Positions 181 through 62,763 of a DNA stretch of 64,000 bases are shown here, piece after piece. Position 1 is the first letter of the stretch. Every line of letters begins with the position of its first letter. This DNA is from Liolophura sinensis (lineage: Eukaryota > Mollusca > Polyplacophora > Chitonida > Chitonidae). The notes beneath the pieces are model-generated. The model did not search any database and was not told the origin of the DNA. It saw only the letters and a list, made by a program, of their open reading frames with translations. The DNA lies in NCBI RefSeq assembly GCF_032854445.1, contig NC_088303.1, positions 21,893,501-21,957,500 of the forward strand, given 5' to 3'. Made by a program: the position numbers and the translations under genes.

Positions 181-268
181 GCAAATAGTGGAAAAGACAC
201 AAATGGTTGTCAGTTTTTCATAACTTGTGCAAAGTGTGACTTTTTGGACTCAAAACATGTAGCGTTTG
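181..268 (+). CDS. PPIH: PPIH penultimate coding exon
   Basis: This 88-bp exon encodes 29 residues, ANSGKDTNG through KHVAF, plus the first base of a split Gly codon. It is preceded by a pyrimidine-rich AG acceptor and followed by the consensus donor GTAAGTAA. Residues QFFITC match the active-site strand of cyclophilins. Confidence 0.94.
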
Positions 269-8243: not shown

Positions 8244-8430
8244 GGGCCCGTATTCATCAAACGTCTTAGGACTTAAGTCAAAAATTCAGACACAGTTACA
8301 AATAAAATGTTTTGCTCTAGAACGTTCTTTAGTGGAGAACAATGAGGTAACCATAATTTGAGTTCTTTCCTGTTCTGAGTTTGGCTTTTTAAGAGCTTGC
8401 AATTTATGGCTTAAGTTTTAAGCTGTTTAA
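8244..8430 (+). repeat. Possible interspersed element starting GGGCCCGTATTCATCAAACG
   Basis: The start, followed by CTTAGGACTTAAGTC, resembles a non-coding interspersed repeat that I remember as common in marine invertebrate genomes. Only one good copy is present, so the right border is approximate and the assignment rests on recognition rather than on a second copy. Confidence 0.35.
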
Positions 8431-8974
8431 TGATAAGTACAATTATAGGGGGAGGCATTTATATTCTCATCTATATTACCATCGTGTCCAACCTATGCGT
8501 TATTATTGGGAGTATATATTACAAACCATGAGTATTACTACAATTAAAAGACCTAAACTACATTTTCAGGTAATTTCTGATATTCGTGCAATAAAAACAA
8601 GTATTAAATACGGTGGTCAAATATAGTCGCAGAACTAGAATCATTTTACTGATGACACAAGCTGTAATAAAAAGAGCGCGAAGCATGATAATCATCAGGG
8701 CTGTATGCCTTTTGCTCTGTATTAATGTTCAGGTATATTTTCACCTGTGTACGGAATTACACAAAATGTATCTATTGTGACTTCAAAATCTTGATCTCTG
8801 TCTCTCTTCCACCACCTGTGAATCACGTCAATAGCAATTTTCTCCACATATTTCAAATAATCAGTATCTGTAATGCAAAACTATAGATCGGCAGATGACA
8901 CAACCAGGATGTATGGAGAGTGGAAACGCAAACTGTGGAGCAGAGCCTTTCTGGTCCAGGAAGGTAGAGCGTGT

Positions 8975-9045
8975 AGGCCAACGCATCCACCGGTCCGTCA
9001 TCTAGTGGTAAGGGTTGTCAGACAGACGGATCTCATAACCGGGAT
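8975..9045 (+). other. tRNA-like segment, possible SINE head
   Basis: TCATCTAGTGGTAAGGGTTG resembles a tRNA D-arm/box A region, and ATAACCGGGATCTAC lies where box B would be. There is no clean cloverleaf and no recognised 3' tail, so this is not a functional tRNA call. Confidence 0.22.
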
Positions 9046-9235
9046 CTACCCTCATATTGTTCCTTAGGCAAGCTCCACTGTAAATGATCTGCAAATGAAA
9101 AAATACAAATCACGTAAATACGCAGCAACCAGTCCTTGGCTCTGCACAATACTGTTGTCATCATCAATATTATTACTGAACTTCGATTGTCAGAAGTCGA
9201 GGTTAAATTCGGACTAGCGAGTGTGATACACGTGA

Positions 9236-9667
9236 GATTATAAGTTAACATTAAACTGATGTTGGAATGTCAGTGAAAAACTGGCAATAAGTTGATGACA
9301 CATCTCTCTGACAGCAACAATTGACAATAAGTAGATGATGAAATCTGAGGAATGATGTGAACTATAAGGTTTTGCTAATATCTCGAAATGGAAGTTAGCA
9401 AAACACTAAATTCAAGGTGAATTGCATCGGTTTTGAAACAGTAGTCTCCTGCAATTGTATATTGTGAAAGCTTTCTTTGTGAAAACAATTCATGAAGTAT
9501 TTTTAATATAAGTGTTCGTAAAATTGCCCAGTATAATAATGTTGTAATATGAGATGATGTTGAAAGGTAAGAAGTTAACAGCACACAGATGGAATATTAG
9601 AATGAAAAGAAAACATTAAGTTAATACTGGAATATTAGAATAAAAGATAAGAACACGCTGATTCTGA
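9236..9667. repeat. Degenerate left flank of the 37-bp array
   Basis: Diverged echoes of the array unit (GGAATGTCAG, GCAATAAGTTGATG, GTTAACATTAA) recur at irregular spacing, suggesting an older, decayed part of the array that follows. Confidence 0.5.
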
Positions 9668-10170
9668 AATATAAGGATGGAAGTTAACAGTTAAGGCCAT
9701 ACTAAATGTAGGGATGGAAGTTAACAGTTTATGTCATACTAAATGTAGGGATGGAAGTTAATAGTTTAGGCCATACTAAATGTAGGGATGGAAGTTAACA
9801 GTTTATGTCATACTAAATGTAGGGGTGGAAGTTAACAGTTTATGTCATACTAAATGTAGGGGTGAAAGTTAACAGTTTATGTCATACTAAATGTAGGGGT
9901 GGAAGTTAACAGTTTATGTCATACTAAATGTAGGGGTGGAAGTTAACAGTTTATGTCATACTAAATGTAGGGGTGGAAGTTAATAGTTTATGTCATACTA
10001 AATGTAGGGATGGAAGTTAACAGTTTATGTCATACTAAATGTAGGGGTGGAAGTTAACAGTTTATGTCATACTAAATGTAGGGATGGAAGTTAACAGTTT
10101 AGGCCATACTAAATGTACGGGTGGAAGTTAACAGTTTAGGCCATACTAAATATAAGGATGGAAGTTAACA
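9668..10170. repeat. 37-bp minisatellite, subfamily 1, about 13 copies
   Basis: The unit is TAAATGTAGGGGTGGAAGTT followed by AACAGTTTATGTCATAC. Central copies are almost identical; outer copies read GGGATGG and TTTAGGCC. It is continuous with a second 37-bp subfamily to the right. Confidence 0.95.
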
Positions 10171-11040
10171 AAAAGCTATGTTGAAATGTTAAAATAGAAA
10201 TTAACAGTAGACATGCAGATGGAATGTCAGAATAGAAATAAACAATGAGTTGATGGTAAAACGTAAGAATAGAAGTCAATACGTTGTCAGAATGAAAGTT
10301 GCCAATAAGTTGATTCTGAAATGTGAGGATGCAAGTTAACATGAAGTTGATGCTGAAATGTGAGGATGGAAGTTAACATTAAGTTGATTCTGAAATGTGA
10401 GGATGCAAGTTAACATTAAGTTGATTCTGAAATGTGAGGATGGAAATTGACATTAAGTTGTTGCTGAAATGTGAGGCTTGAAACTAACACCAGGTTTATG
10501 CTGAAATGTGAGGATGGACGTTAACATTAAGTTGATTCTGAAATGTGAGGATGGAAGTTAACATTAAGTTGTTGCTGAAATGTGAAGCTTGAAACTAACA
10601 GTAGGTTGATGGTGAAATGTGAGGATGGAAGTTAACATTAAGTTGTTGCTGAAATGTGAGGATGCAAGTTAACATGAAGTTGATGGTGAAATATGAGGAT
10701 GGAAGTTAACATTAAGTTGATTCTGAAATGTGAGGATGGAAGTTAACATTAAGTTGTTGCTGAAATGTGAGGCTTGAAACTAACAGCAGGTTGATGGTGA
10801 AATGTGAGGATGGAAGTTAACATTAGGTTGATTCTGAAATGTGAGGATTGAAGTTAACATTGAGTTAATTCTGAAATGTGGGGACGAAGTTAACATTAAG
10901 TTGTTGCTGAAATATGAGACTTGAAACTAACAGTAGGTTGATGGTGAAATGTGAGGATGGAAGTTAACATTAAGTTGATTCTGAAATGTGAGGATGGAAG
11001 TTAGCATTAAGTTGATTCTGAAATGTGAGAATGGAAATAA
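10171..11040. repeat. 37-bp minisatellite, subfamily 2, about 20 copies
   Basis: The unit is GAAATGTGAGGATGGAAGTT followed by AACATTAAGTTGATTCT, also 37 bp and clearly related to subfamily 1 in its first half. Variant units reading GAGGCTTGAAACTAACAG recur every few copies, giving a higher-order pattern. Units at 10171-10330 are transitional or degenerate. Confidence 0.93.
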
Positions 11041-12460: not shown

Positions 12461-12751
12461 TTAAAAACTGTTTACAGCTTCGCGTCTTACCAAGTCGTAC
12501 GGATCTGTGACTTCTAAATGCCAATGTGCATCTAGGGCACGGTTGGATGACATGATACTGCTGATTCGACACTGTCCACGTCCTGTTGAGGGAATCAGAT
12601 TTCGCAGGAATTGGCTTATCTCCCCTGGAACATCTCGCGCCATAAGAGACCCAAACTTCCGTAAAGCCTTTAAAACATCCATGTCTGGTTCCTTATCGAT
12701 GGCCCCTTCAATTCTCCTGCCAAAGGCGTTGACTGTGAGCTTAATCTTCGG
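12461..12751 (-). CDS. Secreted prohormone-like gene, exon 3
   Basis: It starts PKIKLTVNAFGRR after the acceptor TTCCCTTTGCAG. It includes the amphipathic, helix-like stretch MDVLKALRKFGSLMARD and then EISQFLRNLIPSTGRG. A consensus donor GTAAGA follows DPYDL (exon end 12491); without splicing, VRREAVNSF and a stop at 12461 follow. Confidence 0.5.
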   Translation of the reverse strand, partial: PKIKLTVNAFGRRIEGAIDKEPDMDVLKALRKFGSLMARDVPGEISQFLRNLIPSTGRGQCRISSIMSSNRALDAHWHLEVTDPYDLVRREAVNSF

Positions 12752-15700
12752 CTGCAAAGGGAAGATAAAATGTGAGAATTTGAATTCTAATGTGAACAAT
12801 CTACTCACACACAACCACAATTACGAGTCTGTATCAACCTGCTCACAAAGTATCACAATCACAAATCTGTATCAAACTGCTAACACACTACAACAATCAC
12901 GAGTCTGTATCAACCTGCTGACGCACTACCACAATCACGAGTCTGTATCAACCTGCTGACGCACTACCACAATCACCAGTCTGTTCAACCTGCTCACGCA
13001 CTACCACAATCACGAGTCTGTTCAACCTGCTCACGCACTACCACAATCACCAGTCTGTTCAACCTGCCGATACACTACTACAATCACGAGTCTGTGTCAA
13101 CCTGCTCACACACTACCACAATCACCAGTCTGTTCAACCTGCTCACGCACTACCACAATCACCAGTCTATTCAACCTGCTCACGCACTACCACAATCGCC
13201 AGTCTGTTCAACCTGCCGATACACTACCACAATCACGAGTCTGTGTCAACCTGCTCACACACTACCACAATCAAGAGCTTGTGTCACCCTGCTCACACAC
13301 AACTACAATCACGAGTCTGTGTCAACCTGCCGACACACTACCACAATCACCAACGTGTGTCAACCTGCTCACACACAACCACAATCAAGAGCTTGTGTCA
13401 ACATGCTCACACACTACCACACTCACGAGTCTGTGTCAACCTGCTCACACACAACCACAATCAAGAGCTTGTGTCAACCTGCTCATACGCTACCACAATC
13501 ACGAGTCTGTGTCAACCTGCCGACACACTACCACAATCACGAGTCTGTATTAACCTGCTCACACACTACCACAGTCACGAGTCTGTGTCAACCTGCTCAC
13601 ACAATGGCACAGTCACGAGTCTGTGTCAACCTGCTCACACACTACCACAATCACGAGTCTGTGTCAACCTGCTCACACATTACCACAGTCACCAGCCTGT
13701 GTCAAACTGGTCATACATTACCACAATCACGAGTCTGTGTCAACCTGCTCACACATTACCAAAGTCACGAGTCTGTGTCAACCTGTTCATACAATAGCAC
13801 AATCACGAGTCTGTGTCAACCTGCTCACACACTACCACAATCACGAGTCTGTGTCAACCTGCTCACACATTACCACAGTCACCAGCCTGTGTCAAACTGG
13901 TCATACATTACCACAATCACGAGTCTGTGTCAACCTGCTCACACACTACCACAGTCACGAGTCTGTTTCAACCTGCTCACACACTACCACACTCACGAGT
14001 CTTTGTCAACCTGCTCACACACTACCACAGTCACAAGATTGTGGTAACATGCTCACACACTACCAGTCACGAGTCTGTGGCAACATTCTCACACACTACC
14101 ACAGACGGCTGCAGCACCTTGATACAGACGCTTTGATAAAGTGTTTAAATATTTGAAGACTCACATGAACAGTTAGAAGAACACCCTAACTGATGTAAAT
14201 TGACGAGAGGCCGACTTTTACCGCTTACGTGTGACCATTTGCCAGCTATCACACTGTCGTGGCTGCTCTGGTGTTAGTCTCCATTTTGTTGCCTTTTATA
14301 TCTAATTTTATGTGTCATATGGTGTATGTGGGAAGGTCTTCCAGCAACCTGCGCATGGCTGTGAGTTTACCCCGGGCTCTGTCCAGTTTCCTCCCACCAT
14401 AATGCTGGCCGCCGTTGTGTAAGTGAAATGTTCTTGAGTACAGCGTAAAGCACCAATCAAATCAATAAATAAATATCTTTGAATATTCAAAACACTTGTG
14501 GGATTAAAACAAGTAAATCATATTGGTTTGGGGCCCTGTAGTAACCTGGAAAAAACATTAAAGGTTTTCTACCTTTACCTTAGACTGTAACGAAAACAAT
14601 TGGTAAGCACTGATCAAATGTTTATATTTCCTTTATAGCGAAAATTTTACAATCTCAACCTCTAATGTCCGATGTATAGTTAAAATGGTAATAAAGTTGT
14701 AAAAAATGTAATTATAGTCGTTCTACCATTCCTAGCAAGAGAACAAAAGTTAATGAGCTGTGTCATATATGGACGTAAAATCCCTACATGGACCGCTAAA
14801 AAGATTATGAAACACAAGTTTGTCCGCATCTTTTAGACAACGTTTCCGCTCGGGTTGACACGGCTTGGGCAGGGTCCAGAATACGCATCCACTTCAATTG
14901 TTTGGTTGTACATGTATGTGTAAACTGTGCATTGTTGTATCCAAACTTTAAAAAACAAAACACAAAAACAACAACAGTATACATTTTTCTAACAAATCAA
15001 AAACTCCACCGTTATGACATTGTTATATATGGGTACCAGAGACACCATTCCCATGATTGTGACCAATATTCTGATGTACATCTTTTTTAATATGATAAAA
15101 GACTCCTAGCATACAGAGTAAACCCAGAACAGCGACCACAGAGTGATACTTGGCAAATAGTTTTCACGTAACCGTGGTGAAATCTGCCCTCTTGTCAATT
15201 GACCTCAATTATGGAGTTTTATTCTAACTTTTCATGTAAATGTTTCAATCATAGCAAACTACACATCCCCTAGCACCTTGGCTTAAGCAGAAGTGGGTAA
15301 AAAAAATGCAGTGATGTTAACTGCGAGCTATTAGACTTCACTGGTCTGGAATTACTCCTGGACCAACGATAGGCGATGGCGCATCCATGACTGATGTTTC
15401 CTCTGTTTTGATAACGACACATTCTCTATATGGCTGACGGTCACCTGCAACCTGTCGTTCCAGAGCTTTTAATTCAGTCAGGTAAAGACAAGCGACGGCG
15501 ATTTTCATAACTAACAAGACCTCAGTGAAATTGTGGTGTTGTTTCCGACATTATACCATTAATGTTGGTTAAATGACCATCACAGATGTGACTAGCGGGA
15601 AAAATCAAAATGGAGAGCAACCTGTAGTTGAACCAAACAGCATGGAAAAGGGAACAATGTGACCTTACAAAATACACTGCTTAAAGTGACCTCCGTAAAA

Positions 15701-18700
15701 ACAGCTATCGTTCTCTTATTTCAGGTGGGATTTTTTTTTTTTTAATTTTTTTTTAAATTTTTTGGGTTTGGGGGCTCTTTTTTTCAAACTAACAGGTAGG
15801 TTTTAGTATTATCCCTCTAAATTATACTATGATAGTCATGGGTTAGATCATCAGCTGAAGCGTTTTTAGAATGTACCTACATCACTGGGCGAAGCTAACA
15901 AAATCATACTGCATCACGCGAAATCCGGGAACCACAAATGAAGCCATACTGCCCGCATACATTTTTAATGTGAATGGAAGAAGAAAAATCACTGAATAAT
16001 GTGTCTTTTGACTATATGTGTCTGATAATACCGAAACTTCCGTGTCCTCCGGGATAAAATGAGTGATATGCTCCAATATTCAGACGACTAACAGCATACG
16101 CATACATAGCTAGTAACAATTCTGGCTTGTGCATCGGTATACAACCATCGATATTTTCTGTTACTACCAATTTATCCAGCGCTCATGGAGGGAACTGCGA
16201 ATCCTGTACTTCTGTTAGAATAGACAGGGCTCTGTGTCGAGTTTTTTTGTAACAGACTTTACACGGTCATGTAGCATGATGCTACGCGACGCCTGCTGAC
16301 AGCTTCGGTAGCCTGATGGTTACAGTGTCCACCTTGAAGTCGGGAGAAGTGGGATACCAAAGACTTCAAATATGGTATTTGTTGCTGCTTAGCTTGGCGC
16401 GCAGGTGCGACTTAAAACCACAAGCACGCACACATACATGCATACTCTCTTAACACACACCTGGTGACACAAATTTTGCAAGTGTTTAAATAATGCGTGT
16501 AAATATTATAAAATAATAGTGTATGCCAACATTTTAAAATCTTACGTCGCGTAATGACTGTTTTTAGGTTGTTTGTAACATGTTACATTACCGAATTTGT
16601 ACTAATTATAATGCGGATTATAAAAAGCTAAATGTGTTAATTTCATATAACATAGTGTCAAATTACAACATCATCCAACCATGCTGTATTTAAGGATTGG
16701 ATTTCTTAAATTTTAGACATTGTTAACGTAATATTATCACTACTATCAAAATGGGGCCCTAAGTTAGCGGATATAAACAGCTAACTAAACGGTAATTTGT
16801 TCTGAAAAAACACGCTGAAAGACAGGCTGGCATATCAGACATCGTGATGCTTACAATAATATACCTCAGGAATGTGGAATGAATAAGAACCTTACTGGTG
16901 GGGGTATCCCAAAAGGTCCTCCTTGGCGTAGAATTCGTAATTTCCCACTCTCTGCTTCCGATTCCAAGTCAGGCCATTGATAGGGCGTGCAGTCGGGGGA
17001 CAGCGACACGTCACATGGCAGAGCGTTGGAACTTTCTAGGACTGAAGTCTCCAAAGGGTATTCTCGGGAATAAGTGTCGTCTGAACTAAATCGACGATAA
17101 GGTGGTTTGTGGTCAGCAAATAGCTGAAAGGAAAAGAAATTGACTGAGATAAACAAAAGAGATTAATTGTCAAAACCAATTAATCTAATAAATGTACTCT
17201 AATGATCTGATATACATTGATCAGTGTTGTTCAAAAGTGTCTTAAGACTTAATACTAGTTTTAACTTTAGTCCAAGTCTTCAGTTTTGTACTTAGCCCAA
17301 AATTAATTTATTTGTTTATGTGATTGATGTTGTACGCCGTACTCAAGAATATTTCACTTATACGACAGCATTATGGTGGAAGAAAAAAGGACACAGCCCG
17401 GGGGAAACCCACGACCGATGCGCAGGTTGTTGGCAAACCTTCTCACGTACCAAAATTAATTGCGTAACAGTATATTAAATATGAACTAAATCTGCCGCTG
17501 TTCCACTTAATCTCGGTACAACTCTACTGGTTGCTGGGTTCTGCTAAACTTGTAAATATATACTATATAACCAACGTACGTGACTATATTTTTTTAACGT
17601 TAAAGTCCGAATTTTGGCTCGGAACGTCTATAATGTCTGACGCTTGCTATATGAATATTTTCCCGATGCCTAGAACCAAATGGCACGAAGGAAGGTCTGT
17701 CGGCACCCTGCGGATGATCGTGGGTTTCCGCTGGTCTGCCCGGTTTCCTCCCGCCATAAAGTGGCCGCCGTCGTAAAAGTGAAAGAACCTTGAGTACTAC
17801 GGAAAACTTCTGTCAAATAAATAAATAAATAAAAAATAATAACAAATGACAGATGTATCAGCCGGGTTCTTAAGTCTAATCAGTCGTGTAACAGTGCTTC
17901 ATCATTATGTCAAACTCCACATTACCAGGGTCCAACAGGAGGTAGTATCTGTATCGTTTTGAGTAAAATCTCCACGTTGAATATATGAACAACTGCAATC
18001 ACAGTTCAAACATGTAACAGACTTTTATTAACGACAACTTTTCTTAAGTCTGATCAAACTCGTCTACATTCTTGTCAAAATAATGGGTTGAAAAAGAGTT
18101 TAGAAAACACTTGTGTTTAAATGAAAGCGGTCGTAAAAAACAAAGCACATACGCAAATATGATTTGCGTGATGACAACAGAATTGTCAATGCAGTGCATT
18201 TTTGACGTGCTTTCAATAAAAAGCGTTAGAGTTTTTAAGTCCGCGTATAGTTTTAAAATAACGTGTGTTTATATATTTATAAAATACAATCACAAAATAT
18301 GTATGTTAATATCTTTCATCATTAGTTTTTCTTATTATGAAAAAGTCTCAAAGAAATCGTTCCTCTAAAGTTAACTTTTGGTTTTATATTTTATCTCTTA
18401 TATTTTTCTTTTTAAAAGTCAGCTTTCGCTACTCGTGAACAAGTCTTGTTCGCAAAATAAACAATTCAAAGTACAGTTAAAGCGTGACTGAGATGTTTTC
18501 ATTTCTTGGAGTGGTATATGGCGTAGTAACGGTGCACATATACTTTGAAATTAAGCTTGATCCGCCTTTCGTAGTTGGAATAGCGATAATGTCTTCCTGA
18601 CAGAACTGATGAAATGTGTATTAATAGTTAGTGTCATTTTCAAAATGCACGGCATTTCCACACATGATGACACGCGAAATGTCGGAAATATGTTTGAATT

Positions 18701-21700
18701 AATGAGGCATTAACTTGAAAGGGAAACAATTTTCACAGTCAAAATTCGAGCGTCTACTTTCGACCGTTAACGGGTGAGATCTCGGAATGCAGTTTATGAG
18801 TTGCTTTTAACCCTTGTTCAGACTGTAATGGGGTACATGTCTGTCTAGCCGAAAAAGACTGGTAGCAAAAGACTTCCTTGACGGAAATGGCCGTAAAGTA
18901 GTGCGCCTGTCCTTAACATACACTGTTGCCGGAAGCAACTCCGCGTGCACCTCATGATTACCTCAGATATGAAAGAGTGCACCCAGCCGAGTTAAATAAG
19001 AGGCTTTCAGTTAATGAGAATTTGAAAAAAAATTAGGGATACCAAAATGCTATAGCGCCTCTATAAATATAGTAGCTTTTGTTGAGAACAAACAGCTTTG
19101 TAGAGGATAGTCTATGTACGGCATTGGTTATTGACTCACACACAAAAAACACGGTCAAAGTTTACTTCAGTGAATAAATCTCGAAATTAAGTAAACATCG
19201 CTTCAAAGACTACATCAGACTGCTTCCCATATTGATTTTACATTTACTGAGTGAAGGACCTTTTGTGCACAAGTGTTTTGAAGCTGCATGTTTTTGCATA
19301 ACTGCCGGCGAGAGCTGTCGTGGAGAAATATTCTTGTTACACATCTTCGGGACATTTTCCCTTCTAAAAGCTTTATATACTGCTCACAAAAAAGTTTGTC
19401 AGTTGAGCAGGACTATCCATTAGTGAGAATAAGGCTATACTGAAAGAAAGTGTGAAATGGAATGAAAGCGATCTTTTAGAACATTTCTACATTTCCAGTT
19501 AAAGTAAGTCACAATCAGAGGTACAACCACTGCTTCCCAGGATGCGAAACCATACTGCATTGCAATCGGGAATTGGCAGTGTTAAGTGAATGATGTGATA
19601 ATATAAATGGCCTTCGTAAGACTTCACAATATGTAAGACTTTCGCTTTAAATTGACTGTTTTCTTCATCAGAGAAGAATATTTCACTTTTACGATGACAA
19701 CCCGTTTATGCGTGCAGGAAACCAAACAGAACTCGAAGCAAAAAACCCTTCGCTAGGTTCCTGATACACCTACTAACTTAAAGACGAAGCCCAAACATGC
19801 AGATGGAGCTGGAACCATTTTATCCCTCGACCTCAATGGCCGTGGAGCAACTCTTACTGAAATAAATTACGTTTACTGAAATAATTTTTTCAGTGCATTA
19901 GTTGAAATAATTATTTCACTGAGCGTTACATTGTAACTCCTAATGAAGTAACTATTCAATAAGTGTTGCAATGGGCCATGTTGACCTTTACTGAAATATT
20001 TTAGAATTATTGTTTGAAAAATTTACCCATATAAAACCATTTCAAGATGGCTTAGCAAATGGTTAACAACGGGAAAAAAATGAATTGTGAAGTGTTTTTG
20101 CTTGCATAATTGTCACTTGAATTCACTTTCCCTGTGGTTTTCTGAATGCATCGACTTGATGTATTTCCATGTGTTCGGGTGTATTTGTATTCTTTTACAA
20201 TTCATTTATCGGTACCAAACCGGTACCAGGGGGATTATATGTTTGCAGTCCGTCAGTCCATCACCAAAGCTTTCCAAAAGTTATTTGAAAACGATTCCTT
20301 TTTACTAAATTTTGCTTCACCATGACAAGTTATCAAATTCGAGTTTTATACCCTTATGTTCATTTTTGGGCTACATTATGACCGTTTTTGTCCAAGCAGT
20401 TTTCTGGACTTCTATTCAAAACAGTCCATCATTTTGGAATTGACAATCTACCTCTCGGCACCAAGCTGACCCCAACTATACACCCATCCACTCACATCAC
20501 CCCAACACACACCAACTTTAACACCAAACCCACCTGTTCCTTGGCTTTGTTAATTAATTTAGAAAAATTGCGAAAATGCGAAATCACATCCACCGGAAAA
20601 GTCCTGAATTTATCCTAATTACTTCAATTAGAGACTTTATATGCCATATCAGAAATTATGGAATGGCATTATTGAAATAAATACTTCAGTAAGCGTTGCA
20701 ATGGTAACCCTATTAAAATATTACAAGGTTGCCAATGGAACACTTTTTAAAATACACGTGTAATTATTTCATCAAGGGTCACAACGTAAAGCTTATTGAA
20801 GTAGTCATTTCAACAGAGGTAATTTATTTCATTAAGAGTTGTGTCGTATTCTGAGGAGCGCTTTTATTGCAAATGATTTGGCTATTTTCGCGCTGAGATC
20901 ACTGTAGCCACAAATCATGCTTCTTCGCCATTTAATGATATCCTGTGTGCCGGACCCTTGTTCAGAGAAAATATACTAAATGTAACATCCTTGGACATGA
21001 AAATAACACAATCTGTAGAAAAGAATTGTCTGTTGGACAAAACTGTCCCTTTGACGGAGAGAATTCAATGACCTGACAAAAGTATAAGGAAACGCGTTCT
21101 TTGAGCTAGGGTGAAGGAATGGTGGAGGGCAGGAGGCTGATTTACAGCTGTAGCACGCTTATCACCTACATGTAGCATGGCCTGCTGCTGTTTAGTGTAA
21201 CGCATTCTTTGAGCTAGGGTGAAGGAACGGTGGATGGCAGGAGGCTGATTTACGACTGTAGCACGCTTATCACTTACATGTAGCGTGGCCTGCTGTTGTT
21301 TAGTGTAACTGTGCCCTCACCACACGTTGTATAACAGAACCAAGAAAGTGAGCCTACATATTTAGCACTTCTGATGGACAACAGGGTGACATCGGTCAAA
21401 TTCCCGACCTCAATTCTGCGCTTCATGTAGGCGTGTCGGGATGGAAATCACTAGTTAGAGCTAAACAGTTACATGCATGACTTATGCGGTTTTGGATTAA
21501 TGACTTCTGCAACGAAAGAGTCCTTTGCTGGAGTAATCGACTGGAAGGTGGCATGCAACTGCCGCTGATCTATGGGTCTTGCCGCGAGATGTGTCTTTCA
21601 CAATGTTCATAAGTTAATCTTGTCTATGCGCTGAGCCGCTAGCAGATACGATTCTTAACGAATTCAGGTCGCTGTACGACATAATGAATCTCCACAATGG

Positions 21701-24700
21701 CTCCAGGGCATAGCCTTTACATGATCGGTAGCTGATGTCTGCGATAAATGGTTAATCGATATTCCGCCACGGCGTTGGTCAGCAGGCGACAGTCAGGAAG
21801 TTTGACAATGACATCACAAATTTCTGATCTTTCCACGTTTTCAGGATTACAAAATGGCAAGCTGCGTTATAGATGTGCTTCGAAAGCCTGTACGCAAGAC
21901 TACATCTATGTAAGCTTATTCGACTGTGGATGTAGTAAATCTTGAACTTTTTAAGTGATCGAACAACCGCTTCTTTGAAAGATCAGGCAGGGGAAACTGT
22001 AAACGAGCAGCCTTGGCTTGAGTAATGTAACTCTGATACATATTTCTCGTTTTAATCCCACTTTTGCTCACCGATGCTCTTAGCTACCCGTAATCCAATC
22101 TGTTCTCTGAACACATACCATATGACAAGGAACAAATGTCCGCCATTGCTAATCTTTGCATGTGGGCGGAAATGCACCTGGACATTCCGCGCTTTCTGCG
22201 CTCTTTTTATCGCTGTACAGGAAGCAAATATTTTTAAAGTGACATTCTTCTCTGCCGTGAAAAAAGCATTAGAGTTAAAAATTAAATTTAAATCTGTAAA
22301 CGGCTGGTCTGTCGAATGCGGGAGAAGTGGGAGAGGGAGATTCTGCCGTTCCGACTGACGTCATGCTAAAGAATGTCGCACTCTCTGAAACGCAGATGAT
22401 AGGCATCCTCTGATTGTTTACGGTACTTGAGCCCAGAAATTCAGGTATTGAAAGCGGATTTTTACCAGTGCAAATTCATTCATTTAAAATTGTTTATGCT
22501 TCAAAAGAAAAACTCATTTAAAAAGTCATTATAACAAAAAATACGATTTATGCATCGAAACAAACATTCGTCTGCCTGCCGTCAACCAAGATGGATGTTC
22601 CAGGTCAATAATCTCAATGCCAATTCCCCAGAACGACGTTTAATACAAACTACCAAAGAACTAAGACAGCATATAAAGTACGAATATAGGACGGCATCAC
22701 GCAAAGAGAAGCAGTAAACTTTTTTCAGAAATGTTCTTGGCGACCGAGTGAAATAAGAATTCAAATCGTGTACCATGCTAGAATATAAGTTGTCGATATG
22801 TATCTCAGTTGTGCTTTGATTGCAACTGTCCATACACCCAACGCAGCGAGCTAATTCAACACGATGAATATACAGTCACTAGCCCTGGGTTAAGCGGAAT
22901 TAGGAACAATCACGAAGCAGAGTGCCGAAGGTCCTGGACACTCTGTCCGTATTTACTTACAAATGAATTACACTCATTGTAAAGCTTAAGAAACTTAGAG
23001 AGAAGGCGTTTGATACATAAGTTTTTCATGCAAATAACTTGTGACGTTGATTGAAATCGTCGCATAACACACATGCTCTACCAAATACTAAGAGGCGTGG
23101 TTTCTGAACGTCATATGCAGGACCCTTCCTGCATTTTATCTTTGATTAAACGTAAATTTTATTGAATGCATTTGCGTCGAGGTTAGGAGGAAGCTAAACC
23201 GGGACCCAAGCCACTGGTCAGATAGGTAGAGTTTGTGCGTTTAGGTTAAGTGTCACAGTTACATATGAACCCACTTCTGTATGACAGGAAGGAGTATTGG
23301 GTTAAGTATCGAACAGATGGTGTGACAGTATTTATTATGCTAGATGTCAAACTATATGGGGTATGGTACAATGGGTGCATTACCGGGATTGATGTGATCA
23401 TCCGCACGCTATCGCCATTCAGTTCAAAGCGGCATTATCTTGGGTTCATTCCGGAATGACATTTCCTGCTTTTCGTATCAGTTTAGTTAGGTTGTGAACC
23501 AAATGCTGGACACAACAGCTGTAAGAGCGGCCCTTTGAGTATTTGAGTACAGTGATTGGAGCCATGTAAAGCCCATATAATTGTTTTCGGTCCTCTGCCG
23601 ATTAAGCATTTATCCATTTTCTTTATACTTATTTTAGCCCCTGTATTTTATTATACATTTATCATGTATAATACTTATTTCTAGAGTTTTCTGGTGGTAA
23701 TATCAAAAAGATTTTACTAATACGACGGCGGCCGGCATCATGGTGGGTGGAAACCGGGCAGAGCCCGGTGGAAAACTCTGAATTATCTGCATGTTGCTGT
23801 CAGACTTCCCACGCACGACGGGAGACTGGTGGTATGAGAGATAAAATTATATAGCTACCTGACAACGTTTTGAAGAAAATGATAAAATCCATTTAATAAC
23901 AATTTCTCTAATACTCTAAATGTTAACTGTTAAGTCAGGAAAATACAAGGAATGCTTTTTAAATAACACGTAATACGAGTGAATGTTATTACGTTTGATT
24001 GTCCACTGGTAAAACGACTGTTTATATTTCAAGTATAAATTGTCTAAATTTTTCTTGTCGTATTTCATTACATTTTCGTCAGTTTTTTGCGGTAAAATCT
24101 GTCAATAATCTGATAAACTAAGTAAGAATTTCATTCTCAGAAGTATACCCGGTAATAAAAAAGCCGAAATTTTGCTGCATCCTTCATGCCTGTAAAATCA
24201 ACATTGTATAGTAAACCTACATACATGTACGCTGGTTGTAGTATGTCTATATAACCACTGAGACATACGCGCTACCGCCTGAAAACCACTGAATGACGTT
24301 ACGAGTTACGTCACGGAAGAATAGTAACTACCGACAACTTAATGCCCACCTTTCGGTGAAGTGGCGTTCGACCGCTTTTTGGGTGAATAACTTTACATGG
24401 TAAAACTTTTATGACATTAAATATATTGAAAGTTTGCCTTATAAAGTATTGGGCCCAGTTTCATGAAACTTCACATGGGGACATTACTCTGTGAATATCC
24501 GTATTGAAGATGTAGTGACAACCGCTTCCTACATTCTTTCTGGCTGACACACTAGACTTTATGCTCCAAACATTCCAGTGACTCAAGACAAAAAAATCCT
24601 GCACATGAATCGTACCTCAATAGATGTAAAGAGAATCGCGATGGTGGCCTAATGGTTAGACATCCGCCTCGAAGTCGGAAGATTTCAGGATCAAAACCGG

Positions 24701-26555
24701 ATCGGGTCATACTAAAGATTTCAAAAAAGGCACTTGCTGCTGCCTCGCTTAGCGCTCAGAGGTTAGAGCAAGAAAACAGGGCTGGCTGACCAGGTGTCAA
24801 CATAATGTATTCCCCCGGGCTCTGTGGCTTTCCTGCCACCATAATGCTGGCTGCCGTCGTATAAATGAAATATTCTTGAGTACGGCGTAAAACACCAGCC
24901 AAATAAATAAATGAACATAATGTGACTGGGTGGGGTGTCATGTGTGATGTCTACGGCATGACACTTCAGTGGTGGCAGCACTTTGGCGGCATGGACTTGC
25001 CCTGCCACAAGAACACACAATATATGTACTCACACCTAATGACTCCTCATTCAAGAAATTCACCGTATGAGACATTCTTTTTTGAGATATGTTTTATTTA
25101 TAATAAAGCTTCAAATTTAAATAACCGAAACATTATGAAATAATTGAAGTTTTTATATTATGAATTTTCCTTTTAAATTGTATAACAAAGTTTCTTGAAA
25201 ATAATATGTCCTTAAATGACTCGTGAAAAAAAATTATTCTCTTCTATCACTTCTTATTGTTGAATTCATCAGGCACATTTCGAAGAAAAGATTTCACAAG
25301 AACCATTACAGCATATGCGTACATGAACTGTTTAAAGGTGGTATCTAATGCACGTCAACCTCAAACATAAGAAGATTCACAAAATATATTTAGACTCTCA
25401 TTTTTATCACTTGCAAACAAAAGCAGCAAGAATCAGCCTTTTTGTTGATAAATTATTAAAAGGTGGTAAGACGAAATACACAGCTCAAAAACTGGCTGAA
25501 AGGCAAAGTCAGTACTTACTCATACTAATGACGTCAAAATCAGGATTCCCATGATTTCTTTCGTTTTTTAAAGGAATTATCTTCACTGATGTTTCTCTTT
25601 TTTAAGCTGCTTTCGTTTGGCTTAAGCCAACTGAATACACGTGTTAAGTTGCTGCAAAAAACAGCTTAACTGTGGAAGTGATGAGCTTGGTGAGTGGCCG
25701 TGCTATAACCGCCACCTGTCAATCTACATTCCATTCATGTTGATTCACGGAGATCATTTTTGTCACATTTTTGTGCTTAATTTAATTATTAAGTTGTAGA
25801 ATAAATATTATCATGCACACGTTTCTCGTCATATTCACTTCACATGCAGTATTTATGTATTTACTTGATTGGTGTTTTACGATGTACTAAAGAATATTTC
25901 ACTTATACGATGGTAGCCAACATTATGGCGGGAGGAAACCAGCCAGACCTTCGCACGTACGCTCGGAGAGGAGACCAGCATGAGCTGGACTTCATTATAT
26001 ATGAAGTAATACTGAAAATAGTGATAGTTCTAGTAAAAATTCCAACATTCGATCCCCTGCAGACTAACATGGTCTATTTACCCTTCGGAGTCAGACACAA
26101 CTATGAAACCATATTAGATGGGCTTTGGAGAATAATCTCTTTCTACTCACACTAAAGAAACGCAAATATGGTTCGCTTATATCCATTGGATTTAAGCAAA
26201 ACTATATATAAAAAAAAAACATACTGAAAACATTTTGGAGATTTTGCAGCTGTTGGGATGTACATCGTTCTTTTCACGTATATCAAGAATGAAAAATAGA
26301 ATTTTGTAAATTGCATACCTGAGCGGAATTCCTTTGTTTTGAGGGAGGAGGGAGACCCACCGATCTGGTTCCGGTCCGACACCGGCCCACAAGGACACAG
26401 CTAAGGTACGGTTTCGCCAGTCGCAATAAATCTTCATTGGAAAGTTTCCCCTGTAGGAAATGTTTGGGCACGGACATGCCGAGAATAGGGGCGGCAAGAC
26501 TGAGTGCACAGCAGAGTTGGAGACAGTATCCATACGACATGGTCCATTTACACAT
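12461..26555 (-). CDS. Unrecognised secreted, prohormone-like protein (at least three exons)
   Basis: Exons 26555-26319, 17123-16896 and 12751-12461 (minus strand) join with all junctions in phase 0 and encode about 251 residues. The start MCKWTMSYGYCLQLCC continues into ALSLAAPILG, a plausible signal peptide; Met6 is an alternative start. Mature-region features: a CVLVGRC pair in exon 1; two Cys and acidic stretches in exon 2 with the dibasic site YRRF; and in exon 3 the site NAFGRR, which has the Gly-Arg-Arg form of an amidation and cleavage site, plus STGRG. A TATAAAG box lies at 26783-26789. The last exon may instead leave through a donor GTAAGA at 12490-12485 after DPYDL, in which case a further exon lies to the left; otherwise it reads on for nine codons to a stop at 12461. 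I do not recognise the family. Introns are about 9.2 and 4.1 kb. Confidence 0.55.
12800..14112. repeat. 38-bp minisatellite, about 34 copies
   Basis: The unit is TGTGTCAACCTGCTCACACA followed by CTACCACAATCACGAGTC; some 37-bp units read GTCTGTTCAACC. Since 38 is not a multiple of three, each strand frame cycles through the unit and long overlapping frames on the + strand are artefacts. A 190-bp (five-unit) higher-order block containing CAAACTGGTCATACATTACC occurs at about 13681 and again at 13871. The array starts about 50 bp upstream of exon 3 of the secreted-protein gene, inside its intron 2. Confidence 0.95.
14200..14285 (-). repeat. R350 dispersed repeat, inverted partial copy
   Basis: The reverse complement of this segment contains CCAGAGCAGCCACGACAGTG and GGCAAATGGTCACACGTAA, matching the core at 6668-6720. 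Confidence 0.75.
14323..14474 (+). mobile_element. SINE-A 5'-truncated copy
   Basis: It runs from GTATGTGGGAAGGTCTTCC through CCGGGCTCTGTCC and ATAATGCTGGCCGCCG to the AATCAATAAATAAAT tail. It lies in intron 2 of the secreted-protein gene. Confidence 0.92.
14475..15094. other. No feature recognised (intron 2)
   Basis: AT-rich intronic sequence with no supportable coding or repeat signal. Confidence 0.5.
15100..15357 (+). repeat. R350 dispersed repeat copy
   Basis: It shares ACTTGGCAAATAG, TCACGTAACC, GAGTTTTATTCTAA and GATGTTAACTGC blocks, in the same order, with 6655-6905. Confidence 0.75.
15358..16299. other. No gene recognised; T-rich low-complexity tract at 15730-15785
   Basis: Intronic sequence of the minus-strand gene. 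The only structure is a T-rich tract ending in GGGTTTGGGGG. No open frame here has splice sites or a recognisable domain. Confidence 0.5.
16300..16425 (+). mobile_element. SINE-B head fragment
   Basis: SINE-B is my name for a second tRNA-derived family. This fragment has GGTAGCCTGATGGTTACAG (box A-like) and ACCTTGAAGTCGGGAG, then CAAAGACTTCAAATATGG and TTGTTGCTGCTTAGCTTGG, as in the copies at 24640 and 63738. Confidence 0.7.
16896..17123 (-). CDS. Secreted prohormone-like gene, exon 2
   Basis: 76 codons, LFADHKPPYRRF to GPFGIPPP. The acceptor is a pyrimidine tract CTTTTCCTTTCAG and the donor is GTAAGG, both in phase 0. The sequence is acidic, with two Cys (ALPCDVS, SPDCTPY) and Pro-rich at the end. 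Confidence 0.55.
17309..17449 (-). mobile_element. SINE-A copy with 12-bp target-site duplication
   Basis: A 141-bp 5'-truncated insertion. CCAAAATTAATT flanks it exactly at 17297-17308 and 17450-17461, the mark of LINE-type retrotransposition. It lies in intron 1 of the secreted-protein gene. Confidence 0.93.
17686..17838 (+). mobile_element. SINE-A 5'-truncated copy, diverged
   Basis: It contains GAAGGTCTGTCGGCACCCTG, CCGGTTTCCTCCCGCCATAA and a degraded GTGAAAGAACCTTGAGTACT, then a (AAAT)n tail. Confidence 0.85.
17839..19671. other. No feature recognised (intron 1)
   Basis: About 1.8 kb of AT-rich sequence with only short chance frames and no repeat I could match elsewhere in the window. 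Confidence 0.5.
19672..19760 (-). mobile_element. Very diverged SINE-A remnant
   Basis: GAAGAATATTTCACTTTTACGATG and GCAGGAAACCAAACAGAAC echo the SINE-A 3' module in reverse orientation. The rest is unrecognisable. Confidence 0.4.
19855..20850. repeat. Scattered repeats of a motif built on TGAAATAAT and GCGTTGCAATG
   Basis: Forms such as TTATTTCACTGAGCGTTACA (19910) and CTTCAGTAAGCGTTGCAATG (20684) recur, together with reverse versions such as TAATTATTTCATCAAGGG (20760) and AATTTATTTCATTAAGAG (20820). Spacing is irregular. It may be the remains of one palindromic element; borders are unclear. Confidence 0.4.
21090..21306. repeat. 108-bp direct tandem duplication
   Basis: Two copies, each starting near AACGC(G/A)TTCTTTGAGCTAGG and ending TGTTTAGTGTAAC, lie 108 bp apart with about ten differences. 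Confidence 0.92.
21307..22555. other. No feature recognised (intron 1)
   Basis: Unique-looking sequence. Open stretches near 21750-21945 and 22075-22360 lack splice context and domain similarity that I recognise. Confidence 0.45.
22556..22925 (+). repeat. Dispersed repeat family R400, long copy
   Basis: It aligns with 35912-36308 along nearly its whole length: AACATTCGT, CAGGTCAATAAT, CAATTCCCC, CCAAAGAACTAAGA, ATATAAAGTACGAA, CAAATCGTGTACC, TTGTCGAT and a GAAGCAGAGT end. It has no tRNA-like head or A-rich tail and no clear terminal repeats. Confidence 0.85.
22926..23708. other. No feature recognised (intron 1)
   Basis: No supportable gene, RNA or repeat. Confidence 0.5.
23709..23820 (-). 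mobile_element. SINE-A fragment
   Basis: ACGACGGCGGCCGGCATCATG and GGAAACCGGGCAGAGCCCGG are the reverse of the SINE-A middle; the 3' tail is degraded to AAAAAGATTTTACTAA. Confidence 0.88.
23821..24639. other. No feature recognised (intron 1)
   Basis: AT-rich sequence. TGGGCCCAGTTTCATGAAAC near 24450 may be an edge of an interspersed element, but nothing else supports it. Confidence 0.45.
24640..25040 (+). mobile_element. SINE-B copy, interrupted by a nested SINE-A
   Basis: The tRNA-like head GATGGTGGCCTAATGGTTAG is followed by CGCCTCGAAGTCGG and CCGGATCGGGTCATAC, then GCACTTGCTGCTGCCTCGCT. After the nested insertion (24809-24913) it resumes with TGTGACTGGGTGGGGTGTCA and GTGGTGGCAGCACTTTGG. 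The 3' end, as seen at 32105, is missing or diverged. Confidence 0.88.
24809..24913 (+). mobile_element. SINE-A inserted into SINE-B, with 10-bp target-site duplication
   Basis: A 105-bp 5'-truncated SINE-A is flanked by AACATAATGT at 24799-24808 and 24914-24923. Removing it and one repeat restores a continuous SINE-B, so SINE-A was active after SINE-B had inserted here. Confidence 0.93.
25041..25850. other. No feature recognised (intron 1)
   Basis: AT-rich sequence without a supportable exon or repeat. Confidence 0.5.
25851..25991 (-). mobile_element. SINE-A copy with internal deletion
   Basis: In reverse it has the 3' tail, TGGTGTTTTACGATGTACT and GGCGGGAGGAAACC, then jumps to AGCCAGACCTTCGCACGTAC and ends in GAGACCAGCATGAGCTGGAC, part of the head. 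Confidence 0.88.
26319..26555 (-). CDS. Secreted prohormone-like gene, exon 1 (signal peptide)
   Basis: 79 codons from ATG at 26555 to GCT CAG before the donor GTATGC. A second in-frame ATG at 26540 gives MSYGYCLQL and may be the real start. The hydrophobic core is CLQLCCALSLAAPILG. An overlapping frame is also open on this strand, but only this frame leaves in phase 0, matching the next exon. Confidence 0.55.
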
Positions 26556-26782
26556 CGTGGCGATGGCAGACGAGGAGTCCCACACAGTCCGTTCAAAATT
26601 ACAAATGAAATTGACAAAAGTTATTTGTTACAACCTAGAGAAGTAAAATTCCAGAGTTGTGTATTCTGAAGAAAAGTTTCCCATCAAATCTGCAAGTCGG
26701 CTGAGGCAGTTAAGATTTGGTTGCGGTGGAAGTGCATGACTTCAAAGTGCCAACACCAACAATGTGCACAATGTAGACTGGG

Positions 26783-26789
26783 CTTTATA
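26783..26789 (-). promoter_or_regulatory. TATA box of the secreted prohormone-like gene
   Basis: On the minus strand GGTATAAAGCCC lies 228 bp upstream of the ATG at 26555. A start site would be expected about 25-30 bp further on, near 26755. A short upstream reading frame (ATGCACTTCC..., 17 codons) lies in the inferred leader. Confidence 0.5.
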
Positions 26790-38879: not shown

Positions 38880-39054
38880 AATTTATTTATTTATTTATTT
38901 GACTGGTCTTTTACGCCGTACTCAAGAATATTTCACTTATACGACGGCGGCCAGCATTATGGTGGAAGGAAACCGGGCAGAGCCCGGGAGAAACCCTCGA
39001 CCATCCGCAGGTTGCTGCCAGACCTTCTCACGTAGGGCAGGAGAAGAAGCCAGC
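38880..39054 (-). mobile_element. SINE-A 5'-truncated copy, well preserved
   Basis: Starts with five ATTT units (the reversed tail), then CTTTTACGCCGTACTCAAG, CGGCGGCCAGCATTATGGTG, CCGGGCAGAGCCCGGG and GGTTGCTGCCAGACCTTC, with a remnant of the head at the end. Confidence 0.93.
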
Positions 39055-39280
39055 ACCCTAAAGTTACAAGTAATTGGAACGTAATGCTTAATAACTATTT
39101 TACGGCTTGAAATTATTCGGCTATTATCCATATATCCCTAATTTAAAATTTTTTACTATATTTCACAATACTCTACATAATCAGATGTTCGCTTATGATC
39201 CTTCTGACCATATTTAAGCATTTTATCTTCCATTTCTATTTGCCATTCAGTCATTCATGTGCAGGTTCTTCTTATATGTA

Positions 39281-39550
39281 GGGGCCGCCGTGGCTCAGTC
39301 GGTTAGCGCGCTAGCGCAGTGTAATGACCCAGAGTCTCTCACCAATGCGGTCGCTGTGAGTTCAAGTCCAGCTCATGCTGGTTTCCTCTCCGGCCGTACG
39401 TGGGAAGGCCTTTCAGCATCCTGTGGATGGTCGTGGGTTTCTCCCGGGCTCTGCCCAGTTTCCTCCCCACCATAATGCTGGCCGCCGTCGTACAAGTGAA
39501 ATATTCTTGAGTACGGCGTAAAACACCAATCAAATAAATAAATAAATAAA
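39281..39550 (+). mobile_element. SINE-A, full-length reference copy with 14-bp target-site duplication
   Basis: A 270-bp element. The tRNA-like head starts GGGGCCGCCGTGGCTCAGTC (box A TGGCTCAGTCGG), with box B GAGTTCAAGTCC near 39358. A GGCCGTACGTGGGAAGG junction, a GC-rich middle and the conserved 3' module with (AAAT)n follow. TCTTCTTATATGTA flanks it exactly at 39267-39280 and 39551-39564, so it is a recent, complete insertion transposed with LINE machinery. Confidence 0.96.
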
Positions 39551-39564
39551 TCTTCTTATATGTA

Positions 39565-40053
39565 TCATTTTTATGCATTAGAACCCTGTTCTTTTAGGAC
39601 GATTTTCAGTTTACAATCTGAAACTTATTATTTATATATTTAATTGGCTAGATTCAGCATTTACTTTAGTGCCATATTGCACTGCATGATCTTGTCCTCG
39701 TCAAGTACTATTGTGATTATTCTGTGTTTTGAAGACTTTAGGTAGACGACCAACTGTACTTTTTGTTGTTGTTGCTTTGTTTATGTCACGTGACAGTGTT
39801 GCCGTTCCCACTAACAGCTGTTCGTGGTAAATTTTACAATGACAAAAGCACAAGTGACACAAGATAGCAGTTGTCAGGGTAACGCTCTTAACGGGGAGGG
39901 GGAAGGGGAAGGCATCCATTTCTGAACATTTCTGTCGGTCTTGTGGGCTAGAGGCCTAAGGTTCCTACCGAGCAATGTTTAGAGTGGCGGATTGGTCAGC
40001 TTGAGCAGAATTTCCTTTCACCGTGTCGCAAACTGGCGACAAAATTATAGTTC
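39565..40053. other. Non-coding, upstream of the BEL/Pao relic
   Basis: No open frame. AACTGGCGACAAAATTATAG near 40030 resembles the primer-binding-site region that follows a 5' LTR, so part of this stretch may be LTR, but no second LTR was found. Confidence 0.35.
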
Positions 40054-42280
40054 ATGCTGCCAGAATGGGCAGATATTTTGTCTCTAAAACAAGCGCGTGA
40101 TGAGCTGATGCGCTACATGGAAAATGTCGCCGCTGCTTATGAGAGGTATCAAACGTTGCCTCCATATGTTGATAAACGGGATATCTTCGATCGGTATGAC
40201 GTCACTGAAACTGACACTCATCTTTTAGTTAAACAATGTCCCGAGAAGATAAGAGAACTGAATCGCATTGATAATTCAGACAGAAAGTCAGTGGCGCCCA
40301 GTAAGACCAGGAAAGGTGGGTCTTCACAAAGTTCTAAACGATCCCAGTCGTCTATCGCTTTCCAAGGGCCTTAACTTGGAAGCTAAGGCTCCAGTTCTGA
40401 AGGCAAACTGCAAAATATGGCAACTGTTGAGATTAATGAGTAGAGTTGGAAAGAAAGCGAACCGAATTAGACAGAGATAAAAGTCTAGAGGAGCTAATTC
40501 TGACAGAAGCAAGGTTTAAGTACCATCAAAGGTGCTAATATTGTCGAATCTGATATAAAGCCTTCACTACCTACAGAAACGCTGCCTTCAAAGGCAATAG
40601 TAGAGCAATTTTGGTCAGATCTGAGGTGAACTCCTTTGTCCAATCTGATATGACTCCAAATCGATTTGAGAGGCCTACGTCACAGGACATAGCTTGCAGC
40701 CAGTTTGTCGGGGTACTGATTTCGTGGAGTGCGGGAGTGATATCCCTGACTATACAGTTCCACACCAGTCAACCACCCATTCTCTGTCCCTTTCTAGTGA
40801 CATTGCTCTTCCCCACGTGCCACGTGAGATCATCCAGCGACACTTTAATGCCAGTCAGTTTAAGCCTAAGGTTAAAGCACCTGAATCCTTTCCTAAACTG
40901 CACAATTATCAACCACAGATGCCGAGTCCTGATAACTACACCACGAATCAGTTGCGAGACAAAATGAGTATTGGTAGGCTTCCGACACATGAACCTGGTG
41001 TTTTTAATGGAGATCCTTTGTCGAACCAGCTGTGGAAAAGCTCTTTCGAAAACCTGATTCGTCAGAAGGGAATACCTCATGGAGAGAACAAATTTTGTTA
41101 AAGAAGTACTTAAGAGGTGAGGCCAAAGAAGTCGTTGAGGGCTTTTTTTCCTCTCCAGCGATGAATTTTATTTTGAGGCCATCGAGTTATTAGATACCCT
41201 CTATGGAAATTTTTTCGTCATAGTAAATGGGTTTACAGGTAAATTAGAATCCTGACCTAAGTTACCAAGTACAGATGGCCAAACACTGCGAAGATTGGCG
41301 GACTTTTTACGTCAATGTTTAACAGCCATGGTAAGTATTCCTGGTTTACAGTGCTTAAATGACAAGAGAAAATCGGACAATTTTGATGAAACTTCCGGTT
41401 AGCTAGTGATAAGGTGGAGTAGTAGAGTAGCAGAATGGAGAGATAAGTATTTGACATTTTCTCCCTTTGCAGAGCTTGTTAGTTTTGTTGTGAGGGAAGT
41501 CAATACTGCATGCGACCCTGTCACTTCATTGCAAACCGCAAAGTCGAAGAATAGCGAATATGAACGCCACAGATCAAAGGCAGAGCGGAGCCGTGACACA
41601 GAAGTAAGTACGTTTGCAATAGGGGTCATGTACACGTTAAAACGTGCTACCTTTGTAGGTTGACTCATGAGACTGATGGCCGTTATCTCAAAAATTCTGT
41701 TCGAGCAAAAACAGTTTGCTAAAGAATGTGGTCTGTACTTCCCATGCCTTGTTCAAGGTCATTGCCCTAAATGGTGCAGAAATAGGAAGGTGTGTAATAT
41801 TTGTTCTAAAAGGGCATCCCATTTCTGCATGGGGATGGAATTAACAAAGATGGCGAGCCTGATCATACGATGAGTAAGACTGTTTTTGCACGACGATAAC
41901 CTTACCTGTATTGGTGGTTGCAAAAGCTCTACGATCTTGTGTGCTTTTGTCTCTCACGTAGACAATCCAAAAAAGGAAATGATGGTCTATACGCGTGACG
42001 TAATGCCTGCCAATAGGTCACAAATTCCTACGCCACATATGGCAAGACGTTGCCAAAAATCGAACAAATCCTAAAGCCTCTTCAGAATGTCCTTGTCGAC
42101 CTCTTAATTCGTTATAATTGTTTTCGTGCGCTCGTTCCTCGTGAGGTTGTCCTGTTGGTAGGGAACGAGCCGCATGCTCAGAAAACATGTCTGGGGTGGG
42201 GGATTGTAGGCATAGTTGGGTCACATGACGAGGACGTCCGGGATTCGATTGGACTAATTAAGTCACTCTGTGTTAGGTAA
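40054..42280 (+). mobile_element. Decayed BEL/Pao-type LTR retrotransposon fragment (gag and protease part)
   Basis: Broken, successive + strand frames keep family-specific stretches. 40054-40374 is an N-terminal gag-like coding segment (LKQARDELMRYMENVAA). 40690-41250 is the gag region typical of BEL/Pao (FNGDPLSNQLWKSSFENLI, then YLRGEAKEVVEGFF). 41406-41663 has AEWRDKYLTFSPF and ACDPVTSLQ. 41690-41830 is a Cys/His zinc-knuckle-like stretch (CLVQGHCPKWC). 42050-42280 resembles the A17-type protease region (LGWGIVGIVG). Frameshifts and stops separate these parts. Reverse transcriptase, RNase H and integrase are absent and no LTR pair was found, so the copy is dead. Confidence 0.8.
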
Positions 42281-43963: not shown

Positions 43964-44230
43964 AGCCTCCGTGGCTCAGTTGGTTTACGCGCTAGCGCAG
44001 CGTAATGATCCAGAAGACTCACACCAATGCGGTCGCTGTGATTTCAAGTCCAGCTCATGCTGGCTTACTCTCCGGCCGTACGTTGGAAGGTCCTTCAGCA
44101 ACCTGCGGATGGTCGTGGGTTTACACCGGGCTCTGCACGGTTTCCTTTCACCATGATTCTAGCCACCGTCGTACAAGTGAAATATTCTTGAGTACGGCGT
44201 AAAACACCAATCAAATAAATAAATAAATAA
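43964..44230 (+). mobile_element. SINE-A, full-length copy
   Basis: The head GCCTCCGTGGCTCAGTTGG, box B-like ATTTCAAGTCC, GGCCGTACGTTGGAAGG, and the complete 3' module and (AAAT)n tail are all present. It aligns with 39281-39550 along its whole length. A target-site duplication is not clear. Confidence 0.94.
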
Positions 44231-49120: not shown

Positions 49121-49291
49121 ATTTATTTATTTATTTATTTGATTAGTGTTTTATGCCGTACTCAAGAATGTTTCACTTATGTGATGGGGGCCAGCATTAT
49201 GGTGGGAGGAAACCGGGCAGAGCGCGGGGGAAACCCACAACCATCCGCAGGTTGCTGCCAGACCTTCCCAAGTACGGCCGGAGAGGAAACA
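49121..49291 (-). mobile_element. SINE-A copy with 12-bp target-site duplication
   Basis: A 171-bp 5'-truncated insertion, flanked exactly by AGATTCTTGTTT at 49109-49120 and 49292-49303. Sequence identity to the reference copy is high. Confidence 0.95.
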
Positions 49292-49684
49292 AGATTCTTG
49301 TTTCACACGACACTCTAAAATTTTTCACTTTATGAGTGGAGGAAATCGGATTGCCTTGTGTAAATCGCAAGCCTTTAAGTGTGTTATTGACGACTTACAC
49401 AGCAGATACTGGTAGAAGGCAAGTGGCCCTCAACTGTCTCACGATAGCTGCCGACTGCTTATTGTCTTCAAAGCTCCACAATCAGTCAGAGCCAATGAAT
49501 AAATAAATTCTCTTTCCAATACCAGGATTGACCCTACATCCTGTCTGTGCCTTTTGGCTAGCCACTGAGAAACGTCCTGCTTCCACTGATTATAAATGTG
49601 TATACGATATACTTTGTAATAGACCAACTGGACATTGTTCATCGAAGAGCATAAGCTTGAAAGCTAGATCCACTTAAGTCAGTT

Positions 49685-53286: not shown

Positions 53287-53451
53287 ATGGGAAGGTCTGC
53301 CAGCAACCTGCAGATGGTTGTACAGTTGATGGACCTGTACAGTGGATAGACTCTGCCCGGTTTCCTCCTACCATAATGCAGGCCGCCGTCACATAAGTGA
53401 AATATTCTTGAGTATGGCGTAAAGCATAAATCAAATAAATAAATAAATAAA
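53287..53451 (+). mobile_element. SINE-A copy carrying an inverted piece of the 17-bp minisatellite
   Basis: Typical SINE-A sequence on both sides (GGGAAGGTCTGCCAGCAACC and ACTCTGCCCGGTTTCCTCC), but positions 53321-53349 are foreign. The reverse complement contains CTATCCACTGTACAGGTCC, which occurs verbatim in the array at 51826-52620. The usual GGGTTTCCCCCG is missing at that place. Confidence 0.9.
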
Positions 53452-53811: not shown

Positions 53812-61257
<7,446 letters not shown>

Positions 61258-62582: not shown

Positions 62583-62597
62583 TATAACCTAGAGTTT

Positions 62598-62763
62598 CTC
62601 TTTAGCCGTAAGTGGGAAGGTCTGTCAGCAACCTGCGGATGGTCATGGATTTCCCCCGGGCTCTGCCCAGTTTCCACCCACCATAATGCTGACCACTGTC
62701 GTATAAGTGAAATATTCTTGAGTACGGCATAAAACACCAATCAAATAAAATAAAAGCAATAAA
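62598..62763 (+). mobile_element. SINE-A copy with 15-bp target-site duplication
   Basis: A 166-bp 5'-truncated insertion, exactly flanked by TATAACCTAGAGTTT at 62583-62597 and 62764-62778. Confidence 0.95.

Follow-up and report, generated by a model that had tools for sequence, protein, structure and literature searches.

A minus-strand gene that looks real lies in the window (the whole 64-kb stretch of DNA analysed here), and a reading of splice sites and open frames across the window gives it four exons, all joined in phase 0 (Table 1). We favor, with a probability of about 0.6, the interpretation that this four-exon gene, with a TATA promoter, specifies a secreted chain of about 270 residues with up to three disulfides, acting whole outside the cell rather than as short amidated peptides. 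On this proposal, an animal gene would be transcribed from the TATA promoter, and its product of about 270 residues would enter the secretory pathway by way of an N-terminal signal peptide of some 26–28 residues. It would be released as a single folded chain, in which six cysteines (two from exon 1, two from exon 2, and one each from exons 3 and 4) could form up to three disulfides, and the whole protein would act extracellularly as a ligand, an inhibitor, or a matrix component. The exon chain carries an open frame with a hydrophobic start, and prohormone-type cleavage sites in its product do not exceed chance. The earlier note had inferred a peptide-hormone or secreted-signal gene of a family it could not name; the splice-site and first-exon tests support a gene for a secreted product, for which no family was found, whereas the hormone part of the claim is not supported by the cleavage-site tests.

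Table 1. Positions of the gene, its putative control elements, its neighbors, and repeats in the window
Feature	Position	Strand	Remarks
Cyclophilin exon	181-268	+	Pfam PF00160
AATAAA, second poly-A candidate	begins 8059		consensus match only
ATTAAA, poly-A-like hexamer	8426..8431	-	first after the exon 4 stop; consensus match only
Exon 4	9002..9088	-	28 codons + stop; acceptor tttgcag; cysteine 249; moderate support only
Minisatellite, 37-bp unit	9593-11036		covers about 1.4 kb of the last intron (3.4 kb)
Exon 3	12491..12751	-	87 codons; phase 0-0; acceptor cctttgcag; donor TTG/GTAAGA; NAFGRR; cysteine 216
Minisatellite, 38-bp unit	12797-14103		second intron; reaches to within some 50 bp of the acceptor of exon 3
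Dispersed repeat, about 85-173 bp	e.g. 14324-14475, 38882-39055, 39376-39551, 44058-44230; further copies 49122-49293, 53351-53451, 62595-62749	both
Exon 2	16896..17123	-	76 codons; phase 0-0; acceptor ttcctttcag; donor CCA/gtaagg; cysteines 116 and 124; RR at 89-90
Exon 1	26319..26555	-	79 codons from ATG (gccacgATG); signal-peptide-like start; donor CAG/gtatgc, phase 0; cysteines 53 and 59
TATAAAG box	26783..26789	-	234 nt upstream of the ATG
Open frames	40051-41660	+
Spermidine synthase gene	54488-60118	-	several exons, e.g. 58561-58408, 56750-56667, about 55048-54903

Exon structure and transcript ends

The three open minus-strand segments with phase-0 splice sites described in the earlier note were all recovered, with the donor of exon 1, both sites of exon 2, and the acceptor of exon 3 in place. 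Splice sites were scored with generic weights that were not trained on this genome. When an acceptor score of at least 6, a donor score of at least 2.5, and a length of at least 200 nt were required, exons 2 and 3 were the sole candidates for internal exons in the window, both strands included. Markov nulls yielded no phase-0 internal exon in 60 strands of order 2 or 60 of order 4, and 0.017 per strand when any phase was allowed; these rates are illustrative because the thresholds were set with the exons already known. Searches for extra exons gave nothing convincing, either in phase 0-0 between 12.76 and 26.31 kb or in any phase across the whole window. An internal-exon scan with a donor cut-off of 3 returned nothing, and a cut-off of 1.5 returned three candidates: exon 2, scoring 9.9, and two of 17 and 18 residues that scored 6.7 and 4.0.

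The third segment had been drawn to a stop at 12461. Its acceptor at 12751 stands, but a GTAAGA donor at 12491 preserves phase 0, and about 3.4 kb past this donor, beyond the minisatellite array, lies the acceptor of a further exon. The three segments of the original three-exon model look real, but it appears to have missed a last exon (9088–9002), which would bring the total to four. Candidates resembling exon 4 arose 1.35 times per 64-kb null strand, which by our own arithmetic gives about 0.07 in the 3.4-kb span from donor to acceptor, a chance background of about 7%; three more last-exon candidates of the same type occur elsewhere in the window, outside the gene. That exon 4 belongs to the gene has moderate support. 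A three-exon transcript ending at 12461 through intronic polyadenylation, either beside the four-exon form or in its place, would account for the frame running 9 codons beyond the exon 3 donor to a stop and for an ATTAAA hexamer beginning at 12201. We judge it rather improbable, however, given the internal, phase-preserving GTAAGA donor, the phase-0 terminal exon downstream, and the odd number of cysteines that it would leave in the mature chain.

At the 5' end, exon 1 was the only stretch on either strand of the window to qualify as a first exon (ATG to a donor scoring at least 4, at least 60 codons, phase 0), a second in-frame ATG at 26540 being counted as the same exon. An order-3 null of 80 strands produced 0.39 such candidates per strand, and 0.0375 per strand when an equally strong hydrophobic stretch was also required. 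The TATAAAG box reported upstream of the start codon was found where it had been placed; the window holds 16 copies of this motif on both strands, so that 300 nt of a single strand would be expected to hold 0.04. The position of the box and this low expectation support a promoter and have no bearing on hormones; neither TATA boxes nor phase-0 exons are hormone-specific. If the gene were not secreted, or if its true first exon lay elsewhere and exon 1 as drawn were wrong, the two ATGs that lie upstream of the start codon, but downstream of the transcription start presumed from the TATA box, would find a place, as would a second open frame that overlaps exon 1 with an equal coding score, codon content not setting the exon 1 frame apart from it (−0.8 versus 0.0 bits). 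Against this reading, which we consider distinctly improbable, exon 1 has no competitor in either strand of the 64 kb, is in phase with exon 2, and has a hydrophobic start that is rare in the null.

The composition of the exons was also compared with that of their surroundings. The window has a GC content of 39%, with split genes of eukaryotic type and many minisatellites, and the exons have 46–52% GC versus 34–41% in their flanks. No 16-mer of any exon is found a second time in the window (0 of 222, 0 of 213, 0 of 246, and 0 of 69), and the exons are therefore neither the dispersed repeat nor the minisatellites. A codon score derived from the average composition of proteins placed the seven full 28-codon blocks in exons 1–3 between the 71st and 99th percentiles of 3000 open windows and exon 4 at the 88th percentile of open windows; the score is a weak test, because two of three control exons from the spermidine synthase gene scored lower per codon than all four exons of the gene. 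A simple test of 3-base periodicity gave no signal (0.333 versus a window mean of 0.368; 54% of random stretches reached 0.333 or more). The flat periodicity, together with the failure to find a homologue, would suit open frames that arose by chance or through decay, with no gene present at all, yet the low null rates for internal and first exons and an intact chain with matching phases make this scarcely credible.

The predicted secreted product

The four exons encode 270 residues, of which 242 form the predicted mature chain. The latter contains cysteines at positions 53, 59, 116, 124, 216, and 249, whereas the three-exon reading contains five, so that addition of the fourth exon makes the count even; the few cysteines mentioned earlier thus become six. 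The signal-peptide-like start was borne out as a hydrophobic N-terminus, with a maximum 11-residue mean of 2.17; on hydropathy only, 20 of the 216 frames in the window that begin with ATG reach this value, the gene's own among them. Such a start is suggestive of secretion and falls short of proof. We infer secretion and disulfide bonding because of this hydrophobic start and the even number of cysteines, and by extension the protein would act extracellularly. No N-glycosylation sequon occurs in the product, which is neutral. A single-sequence structural model of exon 3 alone had a mean pLDDT of 49.6 and placed GRR in a hairpin, at the turn and the beginning of its second strand; the model is too poor to lean on.

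Cleavage sites and comparison with prohormones

The NAFGRR and YRR sites to which attention had been drawn are present, and the abundance of such sites was compared with shuffles of the same residues. The 242-residue mature chain contains three dibasic pairs versus 4.1 in the shuffles, where the probability of at least two is 0.94, and its one GRR is of a kind (Gly-dibasic) found in 24% of shuffles. No KR pair occurs in the product. These features of a hormone precursor are no more than chance level. It had been suggested that residues around NAFGRR could yield an amidated peptide; cleavage at both RR89-90 and GRR166-168 would release a single one of 75 residues, neither short nor repeated. 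The product was also compared with simple regular expressions, written from the names of 18 neuropeptide families (GNXQN, PXRX, FYFY, GSWN, GWE, IWMP, LXRYamide, RTLF, SLRFamide, WGAG, CCWamide, CLCCY, HFAamide, PRXamide, PXXXamide, LASGL, RFamide-type, and Wamide), and contained none of these signatures. A published filter for mollusc proneuropeptides, given in the excerpted text of PMC6425005 as ten cleavage-site patterns, had no match in either the four-exon or the three-exon product.

A true prohormone would be cut by a convertase at RR89-90 and GRR166-168, releasing the 75-residue peptide with a C116–C124 ring and a C-terminal NAF-amide, and the signal-peptide-like start, the correct order of RR and GRR, and the two cysteines inside the peptide are what such a precursor would display. 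Even so, dibasic pairs fewer than in the shuffles, the frequency of Gly-dibasic sites by chance, the lack of KR and of a match to the published filter, and the absence of six peptide or amide strings from the 5.39 million papers searched lead us to regard it as unlikely. That the gene founds an undescribed lophotrochozoan family of secreted signalling proteins, processed to this ring-bearing NAF-amide peptide of 75 residues, is very improbable. The peptide-hormone reading of the gene is not supported, and a secreted chain that acts whole is preferred.

Molluscan proneuropeptides comprise 65 families in the excerpted text of PMC6425005, and oyster precursors are described in that of PMC8398477. 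With the lophotrochozoan proneuropeptides covered in these excerpts, the product shares a signal-peptide-like start, some cysteines, and the lack of a known folded domain, but unlike them it has no cleavage-pattern match, no KR, none of the 18 signatures, and one GRR at chance level. The excerpts of PMC8398477 also report molluscan orphan precursors that are small, secreted, and cysteine-bearing, some with long Cys peptides; predicted secretion, few cysteines, and the lack of a database family are common to these and the product, which differs in being cysteine-poor (6 in 242 residues) and without GSWN, FYFY, GWE, or CCWG. The product was not recognized among the peptides described in the excerpted parts of PMC6425005, PMC8398477, and PMC8557429.

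Family searches and genomic surroundings

Searches of family and structure collections were uniformly negative. Pfam returned no family at an E-value of 10 for both whole products and for exons 3 and 4 together, and none at an E-value of 1 for exons 1 and 2; NCBIfam had none above the cut-off (best E-value 0.072), PDB had nothing significant (best E-values 0.11–0.15), and Rfam gave no match at gathering scores. Scans of genome_contigs with exons 2 and 3, and of viral_contigs with exons 1, 2, and 3, revealed no relative, which says little because these collections are prokaryotic and viral and the gene is animal. We use the term orphan in the sense of an apparent absence from Pfam, NCBIfam, PDB, and the contig collections searched, among which there are no animal proteomes.

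Several named families were considered and rejected. Calcitonin-type peptides have a C-x5-C cysteine spacing, and a calcitonin-like or adrenomedullin-like peptide would fit the spacing of C53 and C59, but the next dibasic site, RR89-90, has no preceding Gly; the exon 2 pair, with its C-x7-C spacing, does not fit. PTTH/Trunk was dropped on its cysteine number. According to the excerpted text of PMC8398477, prohormone-3 has 12 to 16 conserved cysteines, a number that rules it out, and prohormone-4 has six cysteines in an LDL-receptor class A domain; Pfam found no domain of this kind in the product, nor did a loose spacing pattern match it.

A cyclophilin exon lies on one side of the orphan gene and a spermidine synthase gene on the other. 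For the former, PPIH (U-snRNP cyclophilin) was the third-best PDB match among the best 60 of 114, and the two matches above it are named only as peptidyl-prolyl isomerases. For the latter, the best PDB match had an E-value of 2.7e-73, and Pfam N-terminal domains were found.

The window is also rich in repeats. On the gene strand, the 37-bp minisatellite contains 15 copies of the acceptor-like CACATTTCAG, and six of the eight acceptors listed downstream of exon 3 fall within it; these acceptors may be decoy splice sites. Long open frames, including some of 387, 291, and 200 codons, run along the plus strand of the 38-bp minisatellite and are liable to mislead gene finders. The dispersed repeat, which we take to be SINE-like, occurs in both orientations, and the 25 longest of its 43 inverted pairs are mostly 77–96% alike. 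The plus-strand open frames at 40–42 kb presumably resemble gag remnants of BEL/Pao type, and for the three pieces searched, Pfam gave no family above the cut-off.

As known here, the gene is an ordinary one, and its small, putatively secreted product belongs to no recognized family. The corrected model, with its fourth exon and six cysteines, is what cloning would require. Should its frame prove to be conserved in molluscs or more widely, the gene would represent another secreted orphan awaiting a receptor or a function.
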